A stretch of 64,000 nt of DNA from Eubacterium sp. GTDB taxonomy: Bacteria; Bacillota; Clostridia; Oscillospirales; Acutalibacteraceae. The DNA lies in assembly GCA_029258375.1 (NCBI GenBank), contig JARHZA010000002.1:253001-317000 (forward strand), given 5' to 3'. Shown in pieces: positions 9,989 through 21,118 of this stretch (positions within the stretch are counted from its first letter, which is position 1; the number at the start of each line of letters is the position of its first letter). The notes under the pieces are model-generated. The model made no database searches. It worked only from the letters and a program-made list of their open reading frames with translations, and was not told the origin of the DNA. The position numbers were made by a program, and so were the translations under genes.

Positions 9989-9992
9989 ACTA

Positions 9993-10026
9993 AAACAAGG
10001 CTCTAATTTTAGAGCTTTGTTTTTTT
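9993..10026 (+). terminator. Rho-independent terminator
   Basis: ACAAGGCTCTAATTTTAGAGCTTTGTTTTTTT. Confidence 0.75.
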
Positions 10027-10115: not shown

Positions 10116-10218
10116 TTGACAAATGGGTTAGGATATGCTAACGTAATTACCTGATCATAGGTTAGCAATTGCTAATGCTTGTATAATTAGGTTAGGTAAA
10201 ACTAACAGATTGTATAAT
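10116..10218 (+). promoter_or_regulatory. Promoter region with three GTTAG-N6-CTAAY palindromes
   Basis: TTGACA at 10116; palindromes at 10127-10142, 10161-10176 and 10191-10206; TATAAT at 10182-10187 and 10213-10218. Confidence 0.7.
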
Positions 10219-10303: not shown

Positions 10304-12043
10304 ATGATGATAAATAAAAGGCTAATCTCAGAACTTGGAGATAGCAAAAAATATGTAGCGGGCAACGTTGCACTTCAGTGGTGTTCTCTTGGTGCAAATA
10401 TCACAATGATGGGTTCAGTTGCGAAATTGCTTCAAGATTTATTTAATAAAAGTGCAGATAGTAAAAGCATTATTACAACAATTTCAATAATGGTTGTTGC
10501 AATGATTATAAGATACGTTTGTGCTTTAGGTGTAAGCAGAATGAGTTATCTTTCATCAAAGTCGGTTAAAAAATCGCTTAGAGAAATGATTTATAAAAAG
10601 TTGCTTAGACTTGGAACTTCTTATAAAGAGCAAGTTAACACATCAGAAATAGTACAGGTGTCTGTTGAAGGTGTAGACCAACTTGAAACCTACTTTGGTG
10701 CATATCTTCCACAATTTTTCTATTCAATGTTAGCACCTTTAACACTTTTTGTTGTTTTAAGTTTTGTTAATGTTCTTTCAGCAGTAATCCTCTTAATCTG
10801 TGTACCAATGATTCCAATTTCAATTGCAGCAGTGCAAACTTGGGCAAAAAAATTGTTGTCAAAATATTGGGGACAGTATACAGCACTTGGCGATACTTTT
10901 CTTGAAAATCTTCAAGGTTTAACAACTTTAAAAATATATCAATCTGATGAGTTCAAAAATAAAGAAATGAACGAACAGTCAGAAAAGTTTAGAAAAATAA
11001 CAATGAAAGTTCTTACTATGCAACTTAATTCAATCACAATTATGGATTTAGTTGCTTATGGTGGTGCAGCCCTTGGTGTTATTGTTTCTGTTTTACAGTT
11101 TAGAGCAGGTAAAGTAGATTTAGCTGGTTGTCTTTTAATCATATTGCTTTCAGCAGACTTCTTTATTCCAATGCGTCAATTAGGTAGTTTCTTCCATATC
11201 GCAATGAACGGTATGGCAGCAAGCGATAAAATATTCAAATTACTCGATTTACCAGAAAACTCAAATAACGGCACAGAATCATTTGATGAAAATGGCGATA
11301 TAGTTTGTGAAAATGTTACTTTCTCATACGATGAAAGCAGAGAAATTTTGCATAGTGTTAATTTAGATATTAAACACGGCAGTTTTACAGCTCTTGTTGG
11401 GGAAAGTGGTTGTGGTAAATCAACAATCGCAGGTCTTTTAACCGGTAAAAACAAGGGCTATGCTGGCAGTATTACAGTTGGTGGCAAAAACTTAAATGAA
11501 ATCAACGAAACAGAATTAGTTAAAAATGTTACATACATAAGCAATAACTCTTATTTATTTAAAGGCACAGTTAAGGATAATCTTTTAATGGGTAACCCTA
11601 ACGCAAGTGATGATGAACTTTGGGCAGTTCTTGAAAAAGTAAATCTTTCAAACTTCTTAAAGGGCGAAAATGGACTTGATACAAAACTTTTAGAAAAAGG
11701 TTCAAACTTCTCTGGTGGTCAGTGTCAACGTCTTGCACTTGCAAGGGCACTTCTACACGATAGTGCAGTGTATCTTTTTGATGAAGCAACTTCAAATATT
11801 GACGTTGAAAGTGAAAACGATATTATGAAACAAATTTATGAACTTGCTAAATCAAAAACAGTTATTTTAATTTCTCACCGTTTAGCAAACGTTGTTAAGG
11901 CAGACAGCATTTATGTATTAAATAGTGGAAATATTGAAGAACACGGTAATCACAATAGTTTGCTTTCTCAAAATGGTCTTTATTCAAAACTTTGGTATGC
12001 TCAACAAAACTTAGAAAATTATGTAAAGGAGGAAACACTATGA
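10304..12043 (+). CDS. ABC transporter ATP-binding/permease, CydD-like
   Basis: N-terminal TMD, LGDTFLENLQGLTTLKIYQ motif, Walker A GESGCGKST, signature FSGGQCQRLALARAL. Confidence 0.88.
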   Translation: MMINKRLISELGDSKKYVAGNVALQWCSLGANITMMGSVAKLLQDLFNKSADSKSIITTISIMVVAMIIRYVCALGVSRMSYLSSKSVKKSLREMIYKKLLRLGTSYKEQVNTSEIVQVSVEGVDQLETYFGAYLPQFFYSMLAPLTLFVVLSFVNVLSAVILLICVPMIPISIAAVQTWAKKLLSKYWGQYTALGDTFLENLQGLTTLKIYQSDEFKNKEMNEQSEKFRKITMKVLTMQLNSITIMDLVAYGGAALGVIVSVLQFRAGKVDLAGCLLIILLSADFFIPMRQLGSFFHIAMNGMAASDKIFKLLDLPENSNNGTESFDENGDIVCENVTFSYDESREILHSVNLDIKHGSFTALVGESGCGKSTIAGLLTGKNKGYAGSITVGGKNLNEINETELVKNVTYISNNSYLFKGTVKDNLLMGNPNASDDELWAVLEKVNLSNFLKGENGLDTKLLEKGSNFSGGQCQRLALARALLHDSAVYLFDEATSNIDVESENDIMKQIYELAKSKTVILISHRLANVVKADSIYVLNSGNIEEHGNHNSLLSQNGLYSKLWYAQQNLENYVKEETL

Positions 12044-13698
12044 AAAAACGTAGTAATTTAAAAGTTATGGCAAGACTAATTACTTTAGTTAAGCCTCTTA
12101 CTCCTTATATGATTTGTGCAATAATTATGGGACTTATTGGTCATTTAACTGCATCATTTATTACAATTTTTGGTGGCTATGCAGTTCTTGATGTTTTAGG
12201 TCTTAGCACAAAAATGTCATTAACATTTATTTTTGTAAGTGTTTGTGTATTTGCACTTTTAAGAGGTGTTTTAAGGTATGCAGAACAGTCTTGTAACCAC
12301 TATATTGCATTTAAACTTTTAGCAATAATTCGTGATAAAGTATTTCAATCTCTCAGAAAACTTTGCCCTGCCAAACTTGAAGGCAAAGATAAGGGTAATT
12401 TAATTTCAGTTATCACATCAGATATTGAACTTCTTGAAGTCTTTTACGCACACACTATTTCTCCAATAGTTATTGCAATTTTGTTTAGCATTATTCTTTG
12501 TATTTTCATTGGTAGTTATCATTTTGTTCTTGGTATAATCGCTTTTCTTGCCTATGTTGTTCTTGGTGTTATCGTTCCAGTTATAACATCAAAAATAGGT
12601 GGCGATGATGCAAAGGAATTTCGTGGTAAATCAGGTAATCTTAGCAGTTTTGTTCTTGATAGTATGCGTGGATTATTTGAAATTATGCAGTACAATGCAG
12701 GAGAAAGCCGTTTAAACAAAATGAACGAGGCAACAGACAGCTTGTCTAAAGACGAAGAAAGAATGAAAAAAACTGCAGGTAAAAATGCTGCAGCAACTGC
12801 GTCTGTTATTCTTATATTTGATATAGCAATGCTTTTTGCATCATCAATGCTTTATACAAAAGGCGTAATTGGTTTTGATGGCGTAGTAATTCCAGTAATT
12901 GCAATGATGAGCTCATTTGGCCCAGTTACAGCTCTTGCAAACCTTGGTAGCACACTTCAAAATACATTTGCATCTGGTAATAGAGTTCTTGATATTTTAG
13001 ATGAAACTCCAGTTACAGAAGAAATTGATGGATTTGAAGAAGTGACATTTAACGGAGCAAGTGCAAAAAATGTTTCATTCTCTTATGATAAAGAATTGAT
13101 TTTATCTGATATTTCAGTTAATGTTCCAAAAAATTCTGTTGTTGGTATTGTTGGTAAAAGCGGTAGTGGTAAATCAACTTTATTAAAATTATTTATGCGT
13201 TTTTGGAATACACAAAAAGGTGTTGTAGAAATTTCAAACACTCCTGTTGATAAGATAAATACATCTAACTTACGTGATATGGAAAGTCTTGTTACACAAG
13301 AAACTCATTTATTCCACGATAGCATAGCAAATAACTTGCGTATTGCAAAACTTGATGCAACAGATGAAGAAATTGAAAATGCTTGTAAAAAAGCATCTGT
13401 GCACGATTTTATATTAAGCCTTCCAAATGGATATGATACTCAAGTTGGTGAACTTGGAGATACATTATCTGGTGGCGAAAGACAAAGACTTGGCCTTGCA
13501 AGAGCATTTTTACACGATGCACCATTTATGCTTCTTGATGAACCAACAAGTAACCTTGATAGCCTTAATGAGGCAATAATTTTAAAATCTCTTGCAGATG
13601 AAAGTGGAGATAAAACAGTTGTACTTGTTTCACACAGACAGTCTACTATGAGAATTGCAGACGAGGTTTACTCTGTTGAACACGGGAGGATGAGTTAA
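12040..13698 (+). CDS. ABC transporter ATP-binding/permease, CydC-like partner
   Basis: Fused TMD-NBD, Walker A GKSGSGKST, LSGGERQRLGLARAF. Start moved to 12040 because GGAGG lies just upstream; the track ORF starts at 11992. Confidence 0.88.
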   Translation: MKKRSNLKVMARLITLVKPLTPYMICAIIMGLIGHLTASFITIFGGYAVLDVLGLSTKMSLTFIFVSVCVFALLRGVLRYAEQSCNHYIAFKLLAIIRDKVFQSLRKLCPAKLEGKDKGNLISVITSDIELLEVFYAHTISPIVIAILFSIILCIFIGSYHFVLGIIAFLAYVVLGVIVPVITSKIGGDDAKEFRGKSGNLSSFVLDSMRGLFEIMQYNAGESRLNKMNEATDSLSKDEERMKKTAGKNAAATASVILIFDIAMLFASSMLYTKGVIGFDGVVIPVIAMMSSFGPVTALANLGSTLQNTFASGNRVLDILDETPVTEEIDGFEEVTFNGASAKNVSFSYDKELILSDISVNVPKNSVVGIVGKSGSGKSTLLKLFMRFWNTQKGVVEISNTPVDKINTSNLRDMESLVTQETHLFHDSIANNLRIAKLDATDEEIENACKKASVHDFILSLPNGYDTQVGELGDTLSGGERQRLGLARAFLHDAPFMLLDEPTSNLDSLNEAIILKSLADESGDKTVVLVSHRQSTMRIADEVYSVEHGRMS

Positions 13699-14042
13699 TG
13701 CCTAAAACAGTTGAGGAAAAAAGACAACGTGAACAAGAAGTTGTGTCTTTAATGATTAAATTATATTGTAAAAAAAATCATCATACAAAAGACGGACTTT
13801 GTGATGAATGCAAAGAACTTGATGAATACGCAAAACTCCGTAGTAGTAAGTGTCCGTTTATGGAAACAAAAACATTTTGTTCAAATTGTAAAGTTCATTG
13901 TTATAAACCTGAAATGAGAGAAAAAATTAAAAAAGTTATGCGTTTTTCAGGTCCAAGAATGATTTTTTATCATCCTATTTTAGCAATTAGCCATGTTATA
14001 GAATCCCAAAAAGAAAAAAGACGATTGGAAAAAGAAAACTAA
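13698..14042 (+). CDS. YgbA_NO (nitrous oxide-stimulated promoter) family protein
   Basis: Small Cys-rich protein: YCKKNH...LCDECKEL...CPFMETKTFCSNCKVHCYKPEMREKIKKVMRFSGPRMIFYHPILAISH; start/stop overlap with the upstream gene. Confidence 0.85.
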   Translation: MPKTVEEKRQREQEVVSLMIKLYCKKNHHTKDGLCDECKELDEYAKLRSSKCPFMETKTFCSNCKVHCYKPEMREKIKKVMRFSGPRMIFYHPILAISHVIESQKEKRRLEKEN

Positions 14043-14149: not shown

Positions 14150-17100
14150 TTAAATTATTCTATCACTCTTAAGAAATTCAATAAGTCTATCAGTGTTTTT
14201 ACCGTCATTAAAATCAACAAGTTTTGAATATCTATCAATATATTTTTGTTGTTGAGGGTTATCATAGTTAAATCTAATAGCGTCAGACAAGCCATCAGTA
14301 TTATAGAAGTAATCACCGTAAACGTTATCTTCATTAAGCATAAGTTTAGTTGTAGGGCCGTAGTTTGCCATACATTCGTCTTTTTCTTGCCAGTAGAAGA
14401 TAACACGTTCACCACGATAAAAAGCATCATAAGCAATTGATGAATAGTCTGTAATTAAAAGTCTTGTTTCTTTTAATATGTCATCATATCTTGCATTAAC
14501 AATCATTTTTTTGGCAACAGATTCATCAATATGTTTTAACTCATTAAGTATAAGAGGGTGAGGTAAAATTATAACTTTTTCCTTTAAGTCATCTGGAACA
14601 CTGTTATAAATGTTCATTATCATCTTAAAGTATCCAGTTTTCTTGAAATCATCACGAATTGTGTTGATTTCCCAAGGGCGCCAAGTAGGCATAATAACAA
14701 TTTTGTCTGCATCTTCATTCATTACATTGCGGTCATATTTTGGCAAACCAGATACGTAAATATCTTCTGCAAGGTGTCTTCCAAGTTGTGTAAAGTGATC
14801 GCTTTCTGCTTCTGAAGAAACAACAACTCTGTAACAACCGTTAAGTTTTTTACGGCTGAACATTTTTCTTGATTCACTATCAAGTGATACCATATACATT
14901 ACGCCATGTTGTAAAAATACATAGTTTAAGTTTTTAGAATTTATTTTACTAAGTGCGAAAACATTAAATGTTTTAAGATCAATTGCGTGAACAAGAGCTT
15001 CAGTACCAATAAATGTTTTGCTCTTAAAGAAGTACAAATAATGTTTAAATGTGTACTTATAAATTATATGAGATCTGTATTTTTCTGGAATTTTATCTAT
15101 ATATTCATAGTTCTTGTCTAATATGAAATATACATTTTGATAACCTTCGTCAATTAACTTTTCATAAAGAACGCTTGCGCTTTCTTCATATTTTGAAGAG
15201 TTTTTTTCATACAATAATACAAGTTTTTGTGATTTTTCATCGTTCCAAAACTTAGCAACAACAAATGCAACAGCTTGTTTAAACTGTTCAATGAGTTTGT
15301 CTGAATAGTTAAATGAACGAACATATAAGCTTAGTTTATTGTTAACCATCTGTCTAAATACAGCAACTGTGTCGCTCTCTTTATCATGAATGATTGGACT
15401 TCTAAGGCCAATAAACAAGTTTCCTAATAGTGAGAAATATGAAAGTTGACTTTCAACAATTTTGTTATATTGGTTTTTATAACAAATACTAATTGGGTTG
15501 TTAGAAGGCATCTTTAAAACATCACTCATTGGAACTTTTAAACTATAAATGCCAAAGTGATTTTTAGATTCAACATTATTATTGGCAAAATATTTTGGGA
15601 AATACTTATTGCCGTCAATTGTTATTGAAGTATCTTTTAAAGCAACATCACATGGGGTTTTTAGGCTAAATAAACTTACACAGTGCATATTGTTCTTTGT
15701 TGAAAAGTAAATAGGCAAAATGTTGTTCATAATAGTATTGAGTGCATAACTTTCGTGTGCTATATCACCTTTGTTATTATCAAAATAATATTTGTTTTCT
15801 TCATCGAACATATTGATTTCTTTAAATCCATTGTTCTTTTCAAAAGTTTTTGTTCTATTGATTTTATCTATTGTTTTGTTATTGCAACAGAAAAAGTCGC
15901 CGTGACTTACATAGAATTTTTCTCCACTTAATTTTGATAGAACACCGGCAAGTAAAATATTACCACAAGAAAAATCAACAATTCTATCAGGTTTAATTGA
16001 ATAGAAAATTCTATTTGCTTCTCTTTCAAAGAATTTATTGATTTTATTGCTATCTAATTTGTTACAAATGAATTGAGATGCTTCGTTTATATCCATTTGG
16101 AACGCACTTACAGTTCCAAGGGTTGAAACACTACTATCAAGTGAAGAAATAAATTCTTTGTTTAAAATATTTAAGTTTCTTCTATATGCAATTACAAAGT
16201 TGAATTCTGGATTTTCTGAAATGTATTTTTTTATAGAATCAAATTGTGTTGGAGGCAATGTGCCAGCATTGATGAGGCATAATTTTTTATCTGAATTTTC
16301 ATTTTTTTCTAATTTATAGTAATCAGATTTTCCAGTTACCATAAGTTCAAATAATTTTTCGCAAGTATTTGCACAACCGTTTGTGCAATACTTATCTAAA
16401 AACTCTTGATTATAAACTACTGGCGCTTTCATTTCATTTACAAGGTCTTCAATATTTTCAACAATTGGAAAAGGAAGACTTTCGAAAGGAATATAAACAC
16501 CTCTTGTTGATAGATACTCTTTTTTATCATACGCAAAAAGAATTATTTTTTTCTTTGTTATTGCATAATCAAAAAATACACTTGAATAGTCTGTAATTAA
16601 ACCGTCACAAGCATTAAGAACTTCATATGTGTCATATTTAGATGAAAAATATTTAATATGTTTAAACTTTTTACAGTCAATCTTGCTTGCAAGTAAAAAA
16701 TGAAGATTAACTAAAACAACAACATCATCATCTAATTTCTCGTCGAGTTTAGCTAACATATCAACTGTTTTATTAGTTTGTCTGTCTACATTTGCGGTTC
16801 TACCTGTTCCACGCCAAGTAGGCATATAAGCAAAAACAGTTTTACCTTCAAAACCAAGTGTCTTTTTCATTTCTATGCCTTGCTCTTTATCATAAAAAAC
16901 ATAGTTTCGAGGATAGTTTGCAATAAGGGAATTACCTTTAAAAATATATTTTAAATCGTAATCCTCCATAAAAACTTCACGGGTAAATTCATTTGGAAAA
17001 AGAGCATAGTCACTCATCAAATAGTTTTTTTGAATATTTGCAAGTGACGCAAGGTTAGATTTATCTGCTTTACCAAGTGTTTTTAATGGAGTACCGTGCC

Positions 17101-17491
17101 AAGTATTAAGAAAAACTTGGTCATCTCTTTTATCAAAATATGGTGGGAATGAGTTGTCGGTCATAAGATATTTTGCAGTTGCTAAGAATCTGCAATATTC
17201 ATTAGAATTTCTTTCAACAAGTCCAACTTTTTTAAAACCATAGAAATCCATTCTGTTTTTTGCTTTTTCTTTTGTGTCTTCAGTAACAACAAAAACACAT
17301 TTATAATCGCTCCAACGACTGTTTGTTTCTATCTCTTTTAGCATAGAAAACATATTGCCGTTGATGTTTGAACCTTGCCCACCTTCAATAAAAACAAGTT
17401 TGTCATTGATTGGTAGTTTTAAATAATTTAAATAATCAATCTTTATGTTAGATTTGAATCTTTTTGCTTTGTTTAATATTCTTTTTATCAT
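14150..17491 (-). CDS. Tandem-domain CDP-glycerol glycerophosphotransferase (TagB/TagF-like x2)
   Basis: Two Glyphos_transf-like modules: N-terminal FLNTWHGTPLKTLGK...GLITDYSSVFFDYA and C-terminal FLQHGVMYMV...MPTWRPWE...LLITDYSSIAYDAFYRG. Confidence 0.92.
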   Translation of the reverse strand: MIKRILNKAKRFKSNIKIDYLNYLKLPINDKLVFIEGGQGSNINGNMFSMLKEIETNSRWSDYKCVFVVTEDTKEKAKNRMDFYGFKKVGLVERNSNEYCRFLATAKYLMTDNSFPPYFDKRDDQVFLNTWHGTPLKTLGKADKSNLASLANIQKNYLMSDYALFPNEFTREVFMEDYDLKYIFKGNSLIANYPRNYVFYDKEQGIEMKKTLGFEGKTVFAYMPTWRGTGRTANVDRQTNKTVDMLAKLDEKLDDDVVVLVNLHFLLASKIDCKKFKHIKYFSSKYDTYEVLNACDGLITDYSSVFFDYAITKKKIILFAYDKKEYLSTRGVYIPFESLPFPIVENIEDLVNEMKAPVVYNQEFLDKYCTNGCANTCEKLFELMVTGKSDYYKLEKNENSDKKLCLINAGTLPPTQFDSIKKYISENPEFNFVIAYRRNLNILNKEFISSLDSSVSTLGTVSAFQMDINEASQFICNKLDSNKINKFFEREANRIFYSIKPDRIVDFSCGNILLAGVLSKLSGEKFYVSHGDFFCCNNKTIDKINRTKTFEKNNGFKEINMFDEENKYYFDNNKGDIAHESYALNTIMNNILPIYFSTKNNMHCVSLFSLKTPCDVALKDTSITIDGNKYFPKYFANNNVESKNHFGIYSLKVPMSDVLKMPSNNPISICYKNQYNKIVESQLSYFSLLGNLFIGLRSPIIHDKESDTVAVFRQMVNNKLSLYVRSFNYSDKLIEQFKQAVAFVVAKFWNDEKSQKLVLLYEKNSSKYEESASVLYEKLIDEGYQNVYFILDKNYEYIDKIPEKYRSHIIYKYTFKHYLYFFKSKTFIGTEALVHAIDLKTFNVFALSKINSKNLNYVFLQHGVMYMVSLDSESRKMFSRKKLNGCYRVVVSSEAESDHFTQLGRHLAEDIYVSGLPKYDRNVMNEDADKIVIMPTWRPWEINTIRDDFKKTGYFKMIMNIYNSVPDDLKEKVIILPHPLILNELKHIDESVAKKMIVNARYDDILKETRLLITDYSSIAYDAFYRGERVIFYWQEKDECMANYGPTTKLMLNEDNVYGDYFYNTDGLSDAIRFNYDNPQQQKYIDRYSKLVDFNDGKNTDRLIEFLKSDRII

Positions 17492-17553
17492 ATAAACCTC
17501 ATCTTTAGAACAACGTTACTAAAATTGCATTTTTAAAAATAGATTAGATATTA

Positions 17554-17988
17554 TTATTCTGGAAGTTGATCTTTTCCTTGTTCTGCTTCTTTTAAGTTTA
17601 AGTCACTCTTAATTTGAGAAGTAGAAATACCAGGTGTTCTGTCAAGGAATATAAGTTCACAGTGGTCTTTTAGATAGTCAAATTTATCTGAATCTGCCCA
17701 GTCGCTACCCATAACAACTGTGTCAATATGATAATCTTCAACATCTTTAACCTTTTGTTCCCAGTTCTCTTCTGGAATAACAAGATCAACATATCTAATA
17801 GCTTCAAGCATTTTTTTTCTTGTTTCATAATTGTGATAAGCAACTTTACCTTTTGTTGCATTAAATTCATCTGTTGAAAGTGCAACAACAAGATAGTCAC
17901 CAAGTTCTTTTGCTCTTTTTAAAAGTCTAATATGTCCATAATGAAGTAAATCGAATGTTCCATAAGTTAAAATTCTCTTCATAATCAT
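17554..17988 (-). CDS. tagD: Glycerol-3-phosphate cytidylyltransferase
   Basis: ILTYGTFDLLHYGHIRLLKRAKELGDYLVVALSTDEFN nucleotidyltransferase motif. Confidence 0.95.
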   Translation of the reverse strand: MIMKRILTYGTFDLLHYGHIRLLKRAKELGDYLVVALSTDEFNATKGKVAYHNYETRKKMLEAIRYVDLVIPEENWEQKVKDVEDYHIDTVVMGSDWADSDKFDYLKDHCELIFLDRTPGISTSQIKSDLNLKEAEQGKDQLPE

Positions 17989-19115
17989 TCTCCTTTTTTA
18001 GTAGTTAACATTATAATGAATTTTGCAAGTTTTTTAGCATTATCAGGGTCTTTTGCCTTAATATATTTATCTTTAAATTTATATAACTCACAAATATCAT
18101 AAGGTTGTGAGTCCATATTTTCTAATAATTTTTCTGCATCGAAGAAAACGTAGTTAGGGAGTTCTTCAACTAATTTAACGTTTAATCCTCTTTTAACTTC
18201 ATATTCCTCATAGTCAGGAACAAAGAAATAAAGAGGTTTCATTAAAAGGGCTGCTTCAAAAGCACAAGCAGAGTAGTCAGTTACAATGATATCAGCTATT
18301 TTCATTAAATCAATTGCAGAAAAATCGCCATTATATGAATATTTTTCATCACGTTTTATAGTTGATAAAGGATGTGCACTGATTATAAGTTGATAGTCTG
18401 ATTTGCCTTGAAATTCAACTTTTAATTCTTCAGCAATATATTTGTCTTTATCACGAAAAGTAGGTAAATAAAGAACGATTTTTCTATCTGCCATACCTGG
18501 ATTTAAAGAGAAAAATTCAGTTGAACGTGGCTTGCAGTTTAAAAGATAATCAACTCTTGGCATTGGGCAAATTTTGATTTTGCTTGCTTCATAACCAAAA
18601 GCGTCCATATAAAATTTTGCAGTAGCAGAACTTGGCGCTAAAATATAATCATAATTTTTGTGCATACACATAGCTTTGCTTATAGCTTTGCTTCTGCCAT
18701 TTTCTCTATCAAGAGATTGTAGCCCAAATTTTTTGATTGCGCCTAAAGCGTGCCAAAGTTGAATAACAGTAAGTGTTTTTTTGTGCTTTAAACAAGAGAT
18801 TGGAATTGAATAAGTGTCAAGAATAGCAACTTTTGATGTTGCAATATAATACATATCACCAATAAGTGTGAAACAATATTTGAATTTTGCAGAAAAAGAA
18901 TCGTCAATCATTTTTAAGCGAAAAACTTGTTCTATTGAAGGGTCTTCTTCGATGATTGCTTGTTCTAAAAGCTCCATATCAAGACTTTTTGTGTTGCTTT
19001 GCCTTGATAGATAAACTATACGGTTTTTAGTTTTAAATAATTTTATTGGAGCATAAATAACTCTTAATATAAATTTTAAAATGTTTATAAAAAATATATT
19101 CATATCAAGTACCAA
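17985..19115 (-). CDS. CDP-glycerol glycerophosphotransferase (TagB/TagF family)
   Basis: IQLWHALGAIKKFG...YLPTFRDKD...DIIVTDYSACAFEAALL; 4-nt overlap with tagD. Confidence 0.92.
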   Translation of the reverse strand: MVLDMNIFFINILKFILRVIYAPIKLFKTKNRIVYLSRQSNTKSLDMELLEQAIIEEDPSIEQVFRLKMIDDSFSAKFKYCFTLIGDMYYIATSKVAILDTYSIPISCLKHKKTLTVIQLWHALGAIKKFGLQSLDRENGRSKAISKAMCMHKNYDYILAPSSATAKFYMDAFGYEASKIKICPMPRVDYLLNCKPRSTEFFSLNPGMADRKIVLYLPTFRDKDKYIAEELKVEFQGKSDYQLIISAHPLSTIKRDEKYSYNGDFSAIDLMKIADIIVTDYSACAFEAALLMKPLYFFVPDYEEYEVKRGLNVKLVEELPNYVFFDAEKLLENMDSQPYDICELYKFKDKYIKAKDPDNAKKLAKFIIMLTTKKGE

Positions 19116-19455
19116 ATGGGCTATTAAAAATAAAACCCTATCCCTTAAAATTCTTATTGTTTTGTTTTGTATTTGTTGTGAATAACTGCAAAATATTTAA
19201 AAAAAATAGCAAAAAAATTATACAGTATACACACATAAATCTATTATTAAACAGTATTTTTATATAATATACCAATGCACTATGTTAACACATAATTATA
19301 TAATTTGCAATATACAATATTTATTGCTAAAAAGGTTGCTTTTAATACCTAAAGTAACGATATTTTTATAAGTAAACATAATTTGCACACATAATATAAA
19401 CTTTAAATGTTAAATTATAATTATTAGTTTGTAAACTAATAAAAACTATTGTTTA

Positions 19456-19484
19456 TTGATTAACTAATTTTCCAATGATATAAT
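19456..19484 (+). promoter_or_regulatory. Predicted sigma-A promoter of the MBOAT operon
   Basis: TTGATT-N17-TATAAT. Confidence 0.65.
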
Positions 19485-19540
19485 GGTTATATATGAGAAA
19501 TTTTTATGAATTGTAACTTTATATTTAAGAGGATTTTGTA

Positions 19541-21118
19541 ATGACCTATATATCTTTTGAGTTTTTTATACTTTATTTCGGAGTAACATTTTTGTTGTAT
19601 TGGATATTTCCTAAAAAAGCAAAGTGGATTGTTTTGTTAGCAGGTTCAATTCTGTTTTATTTGTTTGCATCTGGTGGCCATATTTTATCTTTAATTGCAA
19701 CTTCGCTAATAGTTTGGGCAAGTGGTTTAATTATTCAAAAAATAAACGATAAACATAATGAAAAAGAAAATGGTTTTTCTGCTGAAGATAGACAACCTTT
19801 AAAATCTAAATATAACAATTATAAAAAAGTTGTTTTAATATTGGGAATAATATTAAATGTTTTAATTTTGATAGTTTTAAAATATTTTAATTTCTTTAGT
19901 ATTTCTTTGCAAAACTTATTTTCAGTGGATATTCCAGAATTGTCATTTGTTGTTCCACTTGGAATTTCATTTTATACTTTACAAGCAATAAGTTATATTT
20001 GTGATGTTTATAGTGAAAAGTATAAGGCAGCAAAAAATCCTTTTCACGTAATGCTTTATTTAACATTTATGTTAACTGTTGTAAAAGGACCTATTTCAAG
20101 ATATGACCAATTAGGAACACAACTTGTTGAAGGATCAAATATAAAATCAAAAAATGTTATATTTGGTTCACAGTTAGTAATTTGGGGTTTGTTTAAAAAA
20201 ATAGTAATTGCAGATAGAGCAGCTGAATTTGTAAGTGTAGCTTTTGATCAAAATACTTTTGAAAGTGGTTCTTTAATGATTATTGCAACTTTGCTCTATA
20301 TGTTGCAATTTTATTGTGATTTCTCTGGTATTATAGATATTTTACGAGGTCTTGGCCAAATAATGGGCTTTGATATGCCAAACAATTTTGAAAGACCTTT
20401 CTTTGCAAAAACTATATGTGAATTTTGGCAAAGATTTAATATTACTTTAGGTGATTGGGTAAGAGACTATGTTTTTTATCCGGTTTCAAATTCAAAAGCA
20501 CTTAAAAAAGTTGTAAAAAATGATAAAGGGCAACTTGCTGCTTATTACTCAAAACTAATACCAATATCAATTGCGTTGCTTATTTCGTGGATAATAACAG
20601 GATTTTGGTATGGTCAAGCATTTAAGTATATATTATTCGGACTTTACTTTTATGTTTTAATGATGATAGGATTGTTGTTTGAACCATTAATGGCAAAAAT
20701 TTGTAAAAGCTTAAAAATAAATAGAGGTGGTGTTATTTACACTTTTTTTCAAAAAATAAGAACTTTCGTTTTGGTTGCTTTTTCAATGTTGATTTTTAGA
20801 TCAGATTCACTATCACAATTAAAAGCTATAATAATATCAATCATAGAAAAACCAGATATTGCATTTATAAAAAAAGGTGCAAGTAACGGTATGGGTTTAA
20901 CAGTTGAAGATTATTTAATTTTAATTGCCGGTTTTATTATTGTTCTTTTGGTAAGCATTATTTCAGAACGCAAAATTGATGTTAGAGAGAAGTTCTCAAA
21001 ACTACCATTTGTTTTTGAGTTTATTGTGTTTATAACTTTGATATTTGTTATTATTATTTTTGGTGCTTATGGAGAAGGGTATTTAATCGTTGACTTACCT
21101 GTTCAACTTTTTAGATAG
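19541..21118 (+). CDS. MBOAT family O-acyltransferase (DltB/AlgI-like)
   Basis: Multi-TM protein; YISFEFFILYFGVTFLLYW, VVKGPISRYDQ, FYCDFSGIIDILRG, ISWIITGFWYGQAFKYILFGLYF. Confidence 0.93.
   Translation: MTYISFEFFILYFGVTFLLYWIFPKKAKWIVLLAGSILFYLFASGGHILSLIATSLIVWASGLIIQKINDKHNEKENGFSAEDRQPLKSKYNNYKKVVLILGIILNVLILIVLKYFNFFSISLQNLFSVDIPELSFVVPLGISFYTLQAISYICDVYSEKYKAAKNPFHVMLYLTFMLTVVKGPISRYDQLGTQLVEGSNIKSKNVIFGSQLVIWGLFKKIVIADRAAEFVSVAFDQNTFESGSLMIIATLLYMLQFYCDFSGIIDILRGLGQIMGFDMPNNFERPFFAKTICEFWQRFNITLGDWVRDYVFYPVSNSKALKKVVKNDKGQLAAYYSKLIPISIALLISWIITGFWYGQAFKYILFGLYFYVLMMIGLLFEPLMAKICKSLKINRGGVIYTFFQKIRTFVLVAFSMLIFRSDSLSQLKAIIISIIEKPDIAFIKKGASNGMGLTVEDYLILIAGFIIVLLVSIISERKIDVREKFSKLPFVFEFIVFITLIFVIIIFGAYGEGYLIVDLPVQLFR

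Follow-up and report, generated by a model that had tools for sequence, protein, structure and literature searches.

Palindromes in front of a CydDC-like operon are very probably operators of a DtxR-type iron-sensing repressor in gut Clostridia

In the 64-kb stretch of Eubacterium sp. DNA analyzed here (64,000 nucleotides, hereafter the window), three palindromes precede an operon encoding a CydDC-like ABC transporter, which raises the question of what protein reads them and what the operon is for. From sequence comparisons within this genome and among its relatives, we conclude that a DtxR-type iron-sensing repressor very probably binds the palindromes, which recur across gut Clostridia before iron and heme uptake genes. 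The features of the locus are listed below, with the promoter elements proposed from their sequence.

9992..10023, + strand: terminator-like hairpin of the preceding gene, setting the CydDC-like operon apart from that gene
10116..10121, + strand: TTGACA, possible -35 just 5' of operator 1
10127..10142, no strand: predicted operator 1, GTTAGGATATGCTAAC, exact match, half-sites fitting the regulon consensus RGTTAGYNNNNRCTAACY
10161..10176, no strand: predicted operator 2, GTTAGCAATTGCTAAT, exact match
10182..10187, + strand: TATAAT, possible -10 between operators 2 and 3
10191..10206, no strand: predicted operator 3, GTTAGGTAAAACTAAC, exact match
10213..10218, + strand: TATAAT, possible -10, 3' of operator 3
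10304..12043, + strand: CydD-like ABC transporter half, 579 aa (TIGR02857, E 1e-123, below the curated cut-off)
12040..13698, + strand: CydC-like ABC transporter half, 552 aa (TIGR02868, E 6e-97, just under the cut-off)
13698..14042, + strand: YgbA_NO family protein (PF11756, E 4e-49), third gene of the operon

The original prediction had described palindromes at 10127, 10161 and 10191 at spacings of 34 and 30 bp, a TTGACA ahead of them, and a TATAAT 3' of each of sites 2 and 3, 21-22 bp from where the site begins. All of these were located exactly as described, with start-to-start distances of 34 bp (sites 1 to 2) and 30 bp (sites 2 to 3) and the two TATAATs at 10182 and 10213. The three palindromes, which lie between the hairpin and the CydD-like start at 10304, are the only exact matches to GTTAG-N6-CTAAY in the window, and their occurrence is far beyond chance: when the 315-bp intergenic region was shuffled 20,000 times with its dinucleotides preserved, no shuffle contained even two sites. 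A consensus promoter scan reported no promoter at the operators, including the TTGACA at 10116-10121. On the other side of the hairpin, an ECF sigma factor gene is followed by a gene for a large beta-propeller-domain protein (PF09826; 7654-9988 together), possibly the regulator of the sigma factor.

A genome-wide scan for the motif, which had been proposed as a way to define a regulon, did recover one. In pattern searches of the 1.716-Mb genome with reversed-pattern controls, RTTAGN6CTAAY was found 26 times versus 7 in the control, and the stricter GTTAGN6CTAAC 14 times versus 3. All 14 strict sites are intergenic by ORF reading, before or within the following units.

feoA-feoA-feoB, with two sites upstream (one of a looser form) and one between feoA and feoB
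the CydDC-like/YgbA operon of the window
a NEAT-domain gene followed by a second CydDC-like pair
an ABC pair adjoining a TetR gene
a small HMA-domain-like gene
a NEAT/Shp/periplasmic-binding-protein heme-uptake cluster (periplasmic-binding-protein/permease genes)
DUF3793 and flavodoxin genes, with three sites
an LCM-type methyltransferase gene
a PEMT/ICMT gene and a thioredoxin gene

The combination of ferrous-iron transport, heme capture and flavodoxin is the signature of an iron-starvation regulon.

Three of these units show further regularities among relatives. At feoAAB (C2:538860-539516 in this genome, G000; L022 4361-5017), many species carry operators 5' of feoA and more of them in the feoA-feoB gap, which suggests a second regulated promoter for feoB. 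DUF3793 genes adjoin flavodoxin genes, ABC genes or both under the operators in several species (L026 4180-5247, L151, L157, L163), a context that ties DUF3793, a domain of unknown function, to iron limitation. An HMA-domain gene and several methyltransferase genes, one of them LCM-type, stand under the same operators (L159 1-3917, L165, L019 3495-4307), and possibly belong to a metallophore or heme-related pathway.

We then compared 80 loci from other Clostridia whose CydD-like protein is 67-74% identical to the one encoded here. The original prediction had named absence of the motif from orthologous operons as the outcome that would speak against it; instead, 51 of the 80 loci carry TTAGN6CTAA within 350 bp 5' of the CydD-like gene, with 90 sites and 0 reversed-control matches in 27 kb, as against 60 sites in the remaining 767 kb of the same loci. 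In [Ruminococcus] torques ATCC 27756, a culturable commensal, the sites are at -207 and -140 relative to the CydD-like gene. In several loci with no site directly before the CydD-like gene (L036, L077, L078, L092, L107), a NEAT gene opens a longer operon and the sites lie ahead of that. Two such NEAT-CydDC-like operons are preceded by regular arrays, one of four operators at exact 35-bp steps (L092 4078-4198) and one of three at 34- and 33-bp steps (L078 2095-2177). Both the genome-wide regulon and the orthologous loci thus support the proposal that the palindromes are operators of the CydDC-like operon. Searches of the open-licence literature on the motif, on YgbA and iron, on DtxR in gut Clostridia and on CydDC with NEAT found no description of the regulon, which is weak evidence given that scope.

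What kind of protein would read such sites? From 243 distinct sites we derived the consensus RGTTAGYNNNNRCTAACY, of which only the outer R/Y and the inner Y/R are findings, as the RTTAG/CTAAY core was imposed by the search. The half-sites TTAG and CTAA lie 10 bp apart, at dimer spacing. In actinobacterial regulons, an IdeR monomer reads one CCTAA unit of TTAGGTTAGSCTAACCTAA and the 19-bp box takes two dimers; the 14-bp site TTAGGNNNNCCTAA can be bound by one IdeR dimer alone (PMC8464063), and its half-site distance is the same as that in the operators. In the window, the two best matches to the 19-bp DtxR/IdeR consensus are sites 1 and 3, each at 16/19 (for operator 3 with its flank, 10187-10205), and the next best reaches 14/19. 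The likeness to a DtxR/IdeR box noted in the original prediction therefore holds in kind, as the half that serves a single dimer, but not for the double-dimer box as a general form. We looked for a second dimer at a 5-bp offset across the 243 sites and rejected it, the mean best match being 3.00 versus 2.88 (sd 0.07) in shuffles.

The spacing between operators is also patterned. Adjacent sites in the collected loci are most often 34 bp (17 pairs) or 35 bp (13 pairs) apart, with smaller groups at 43-46 and 53-55 bp. When site pairs were sought across the whole class, 84 of 393 genomes contained them, against 5 control matches overall, and the pairs listed from this search peak at 24-27 and 34 bp. 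Helical periodicity was clear, with R = 0.51 at 10.5 bp, a value reached by 0 of 20,000 random sets, uncorrected for relatedness. Because the spacing carries a constant offset of about 0.3 turn, neighboring dimers would hold a fixed angle to each other and not share one face. Of the two steps in the window, that of 34 bp agrees with this pattern and that of 30 bp is infrequent among the pairs (3 of 75). Accordingly, the earlier description of the spacing as three helical turns is only loosely right, with family modes of about 25, 34-35 and 45 bp, of which 34-35 bp corresponds to 3.3 turns.

A candidate regulator is encoded elsewhere in the genome, in agreement with the prediction that the controlling protein lies outside the window: a 124-aa DtxR (C2:538313-538684) whose gene stands beside the feoAAB operators, with PF01325 and PF02742 both above cut-off. 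Among solved proteins diphtheria DtxR is its nearest match (E 4e-15), ahead of MntR (5e-11), and it keeps the iron ligands Met10, Cys102, Glu105 and His106. Among the relatives' DtxRs picked by their similarity to this one, Met10 is present in 30 of 32 and Cys102, Glu105 and His106 in 32 of 32. The sulfur ligands Met10 and Cys102 raise Fe(II) selectivity, and MntR has Asp/Asn and Glu at these positions (PMC10317159). The SH3-like C-terminal domain is absent from the feo-linked DtxR, the DtxR match stopping at residue 114 of 124. Shorter members of the family, such as MntR, also lack this domain.

The association of DtxR genes with the sites is not confined to this genome. The arrangement of dtxR, sites and feo was found again in relatives; a DtxR gene lies directly 5' of the CydD-like gene in eight loci (L037, L038, L043, L044, L055, L084, L087, L103) and is divergent from it in L082. 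The statement that no regulator gene lies nearby is thus true of the window, but in relatives the same operon has a DtxR gene immediately before it or divergent from it. In the DtxRs encoded inside the CydDC operons of some relatives, the residue at the Met10 position is Asp and the recognition helix differs, and the motif is often missing immediately 5' of the CydD-like gene in these operons, which counts against the model. Given its Asp and its helix, this DtxR subfamily within heme-uptake/CydDC operons may be a second sensor with its own operator or metal.

Across 118 genomes (this one and relatives), in which DtxR absence was confirmed with PF02742, the 99 with a DtxR homolog held 437 sites versus 123 in the control, whereas the 19 without one held 27 versus 21. 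One-sided Mann-Whitney tests gave 1e-4 on the difference and 2e-6 on site counts, which are indicative only as the genomes are related. Three DtxR-less genomes, G069, G078 and G088, contributed 19 of the 27 sites, and the other 16 had 8 versus 18 in the control. These three speak against the model, since operators are present while the DtxR C-terminal domain was undetected in assemblies that are 97% (G078, G088) and 79% (G069) complete. Genus mates of G078 and G088 carry sites as well as a DtxR, and it is possible that their DtxR was lost from the assemblies.

Taking the form of the operators and the associated genes into account, we propose a model that we rate as likely in its entirety, namely that the feo-linked DtxR acts on single-dimer operators and represses the CydDC-like/YgbA operon under iron. 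Each palindrome would take one DtxR dimer, most likely of this 124-aa protein, on its TTAG/CTAA half-sites. When iron is plentiful, Fe(II)-loaded dimers would fill the array and cover the promoter region, switching off the operon together with feoAAB, the NEAT/Shp heme-uptake genes and flavodoxin. Under iron shortage, release of the dimers would allow transcription of the operon, whose product probably carries heme or another iron-bearing compound across the membrane.

Other proteins of this genome have to be weighed against the feo-linked DtxR. A second DtxR-like protein (C2:488061-488423), which has Asn at the Met10 position and might sense manganese or several metals, is of the same family, and in some relatives with a good operator excess the best DtxR match is only 42-50% identical to the feo-linked protein; its presence counts against the model to that extent. 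We nevertheless think it unlikely to bind the sites, as no operator lies near its gene and the targets are iron genes, and it is the feo-linked protein that carries the iron ligand set and adjoins operators. The MarR/SlyA-type site of the original prediction, which would imply a regulator sensing antimicrobials or phenolics, was suggested by the resemblance of TTAGCAATTGCTAA to some MarR-type sites, and one operator pair in this genome does lie between a NEAT/CydDC-like unit and a divergent MarR gene. That is the sole MarR neighbor found, adjoining a single pair here; across species the genes that recur beside the sites are DtxR genes. With targets of iron and heme genes, an operator excess that tracks DtxR presence and half-sites at the spacing of a DtxR dimer, we set this reading aside as quite improbable.

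The presence of two Fur-family genes also counts against the model, and the content of the regulon is typical of Fur targets in many bacteria. The Fur box is a GATAAT-type inverted repeat. The motif is unlike it and the sites adjoin dtxR genes, making control of the operon by a Fur-family protein very improbable. Finally, each palindrome could fold into a stem of 5 bp capped by a 6-base loop and might work as a hairpin in the leader RNA, not as a protein site on DNA. We find this scarcely credible, because the half-site sequence is constant with no paired variation, the sites overlap promoter-like elements, and no Rfam family reaches gathering score here.

Compared with the actinobacterial IdeR/DtxR regulons, the system favored here, in which DtxR dimers occupy single-dimer operators, shares a DtxR-family regulator with the same four ligands, TTAG...CTAA half-sites 10 bp apart, and iron and heme uptake targets. 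It differs in using single-dimer sites, in many cases recurring at intervals of about 25, 34-35 or 45 bp, in place of one 19-bp double-dimer box; in inner bases of Y-N4-R versus G-N4-C; in a regulator without the SH3-like domain; and in having anaerobic Clostridia as hosts. Another close precedent is the IdeR site TTAGGNNNNCCTAA in the nuo promoter of Saccharopolyspora erythraea, with one dimer per 14-bp site at equal spacing (PMC8464063). There it is an exception among double sites, whereas for the predicted operators here it is the rule, in arrays.

What, then, does the operon do? The CydD-like and CydC-like genes overlap by 4 bp, and both proteins come close to the equivalog cut-offs without reaching them (CydD, score 414 versus 435; CydC, 325 versus 329 bits). 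A search of solved structures by sequence with the CydD-like half did not discriminate function, general ABC exporters scoring highest. Like the heme/thiol ABC transporter CydDC of E. coli, the pair is a heterodimer of exporter type. His85 of E. coli CydC is a heme axial ligand (PMC11442138), and it aligns with His87 of the CydC-like protein, which is invariant in 78 homologs. Unlike E. coli CydDC, the pair has iron-type operators and is linked to NEAT/Shp heme-uptake genes and YgbA. Cytochrome bd (PF01654) was found in 0 of the 118 genomes searched, this one included, with 10 of 14 control genomes positive; thus the pair does not serve cytochrome bd here.

The operators very probably place the CydDC-like transporter and YgbA in iron and heme handling and not in respiration. 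Since His87 is kept, the operators are of iron type and the neighbors are NEAT/Shp genes, heme or a related iron compound is the most likely substrate, and the operon probably moves it under iron limitation. The YgbA gene lies directly 3' of the CydC-like gene in many relatives, so YgbA probably belongs to the same pathway. A bolder and more doubtful reading is that the pair imports heme (or a porphyrin or iron chelate), or carries heme from membrane to cytosol, taking it from NEAT proteins with an exporter fold used for uptake, that YgbA is an iron- or heme-handling partner, and that tandem single-dimer DtxR arrays with a fixed helical offset control both.

RGTTAGYNNNNRCTAACY in arrays offers a simple, searchable iron-regulon signature for a large group of anaerobic gut Clostridia. 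It also gives a testable context to two families that are poorly understood, CydDC-like transporters in organisms without cytochrome bd and YgbA ("nitrous oxide-stimulated promoter") proteins. The contest for iron and heme in the gut has a practical bearing on diet, inflammation and colonization. Downstream of the operon, the window continues at 14150-21118 with genes that, from reading their translations only, resemble those of teichoic acid synthesis (CDP-glycerol transferase-like, glycerol-3-phosphate cytidylyltransferase-like and MBOAT-like).
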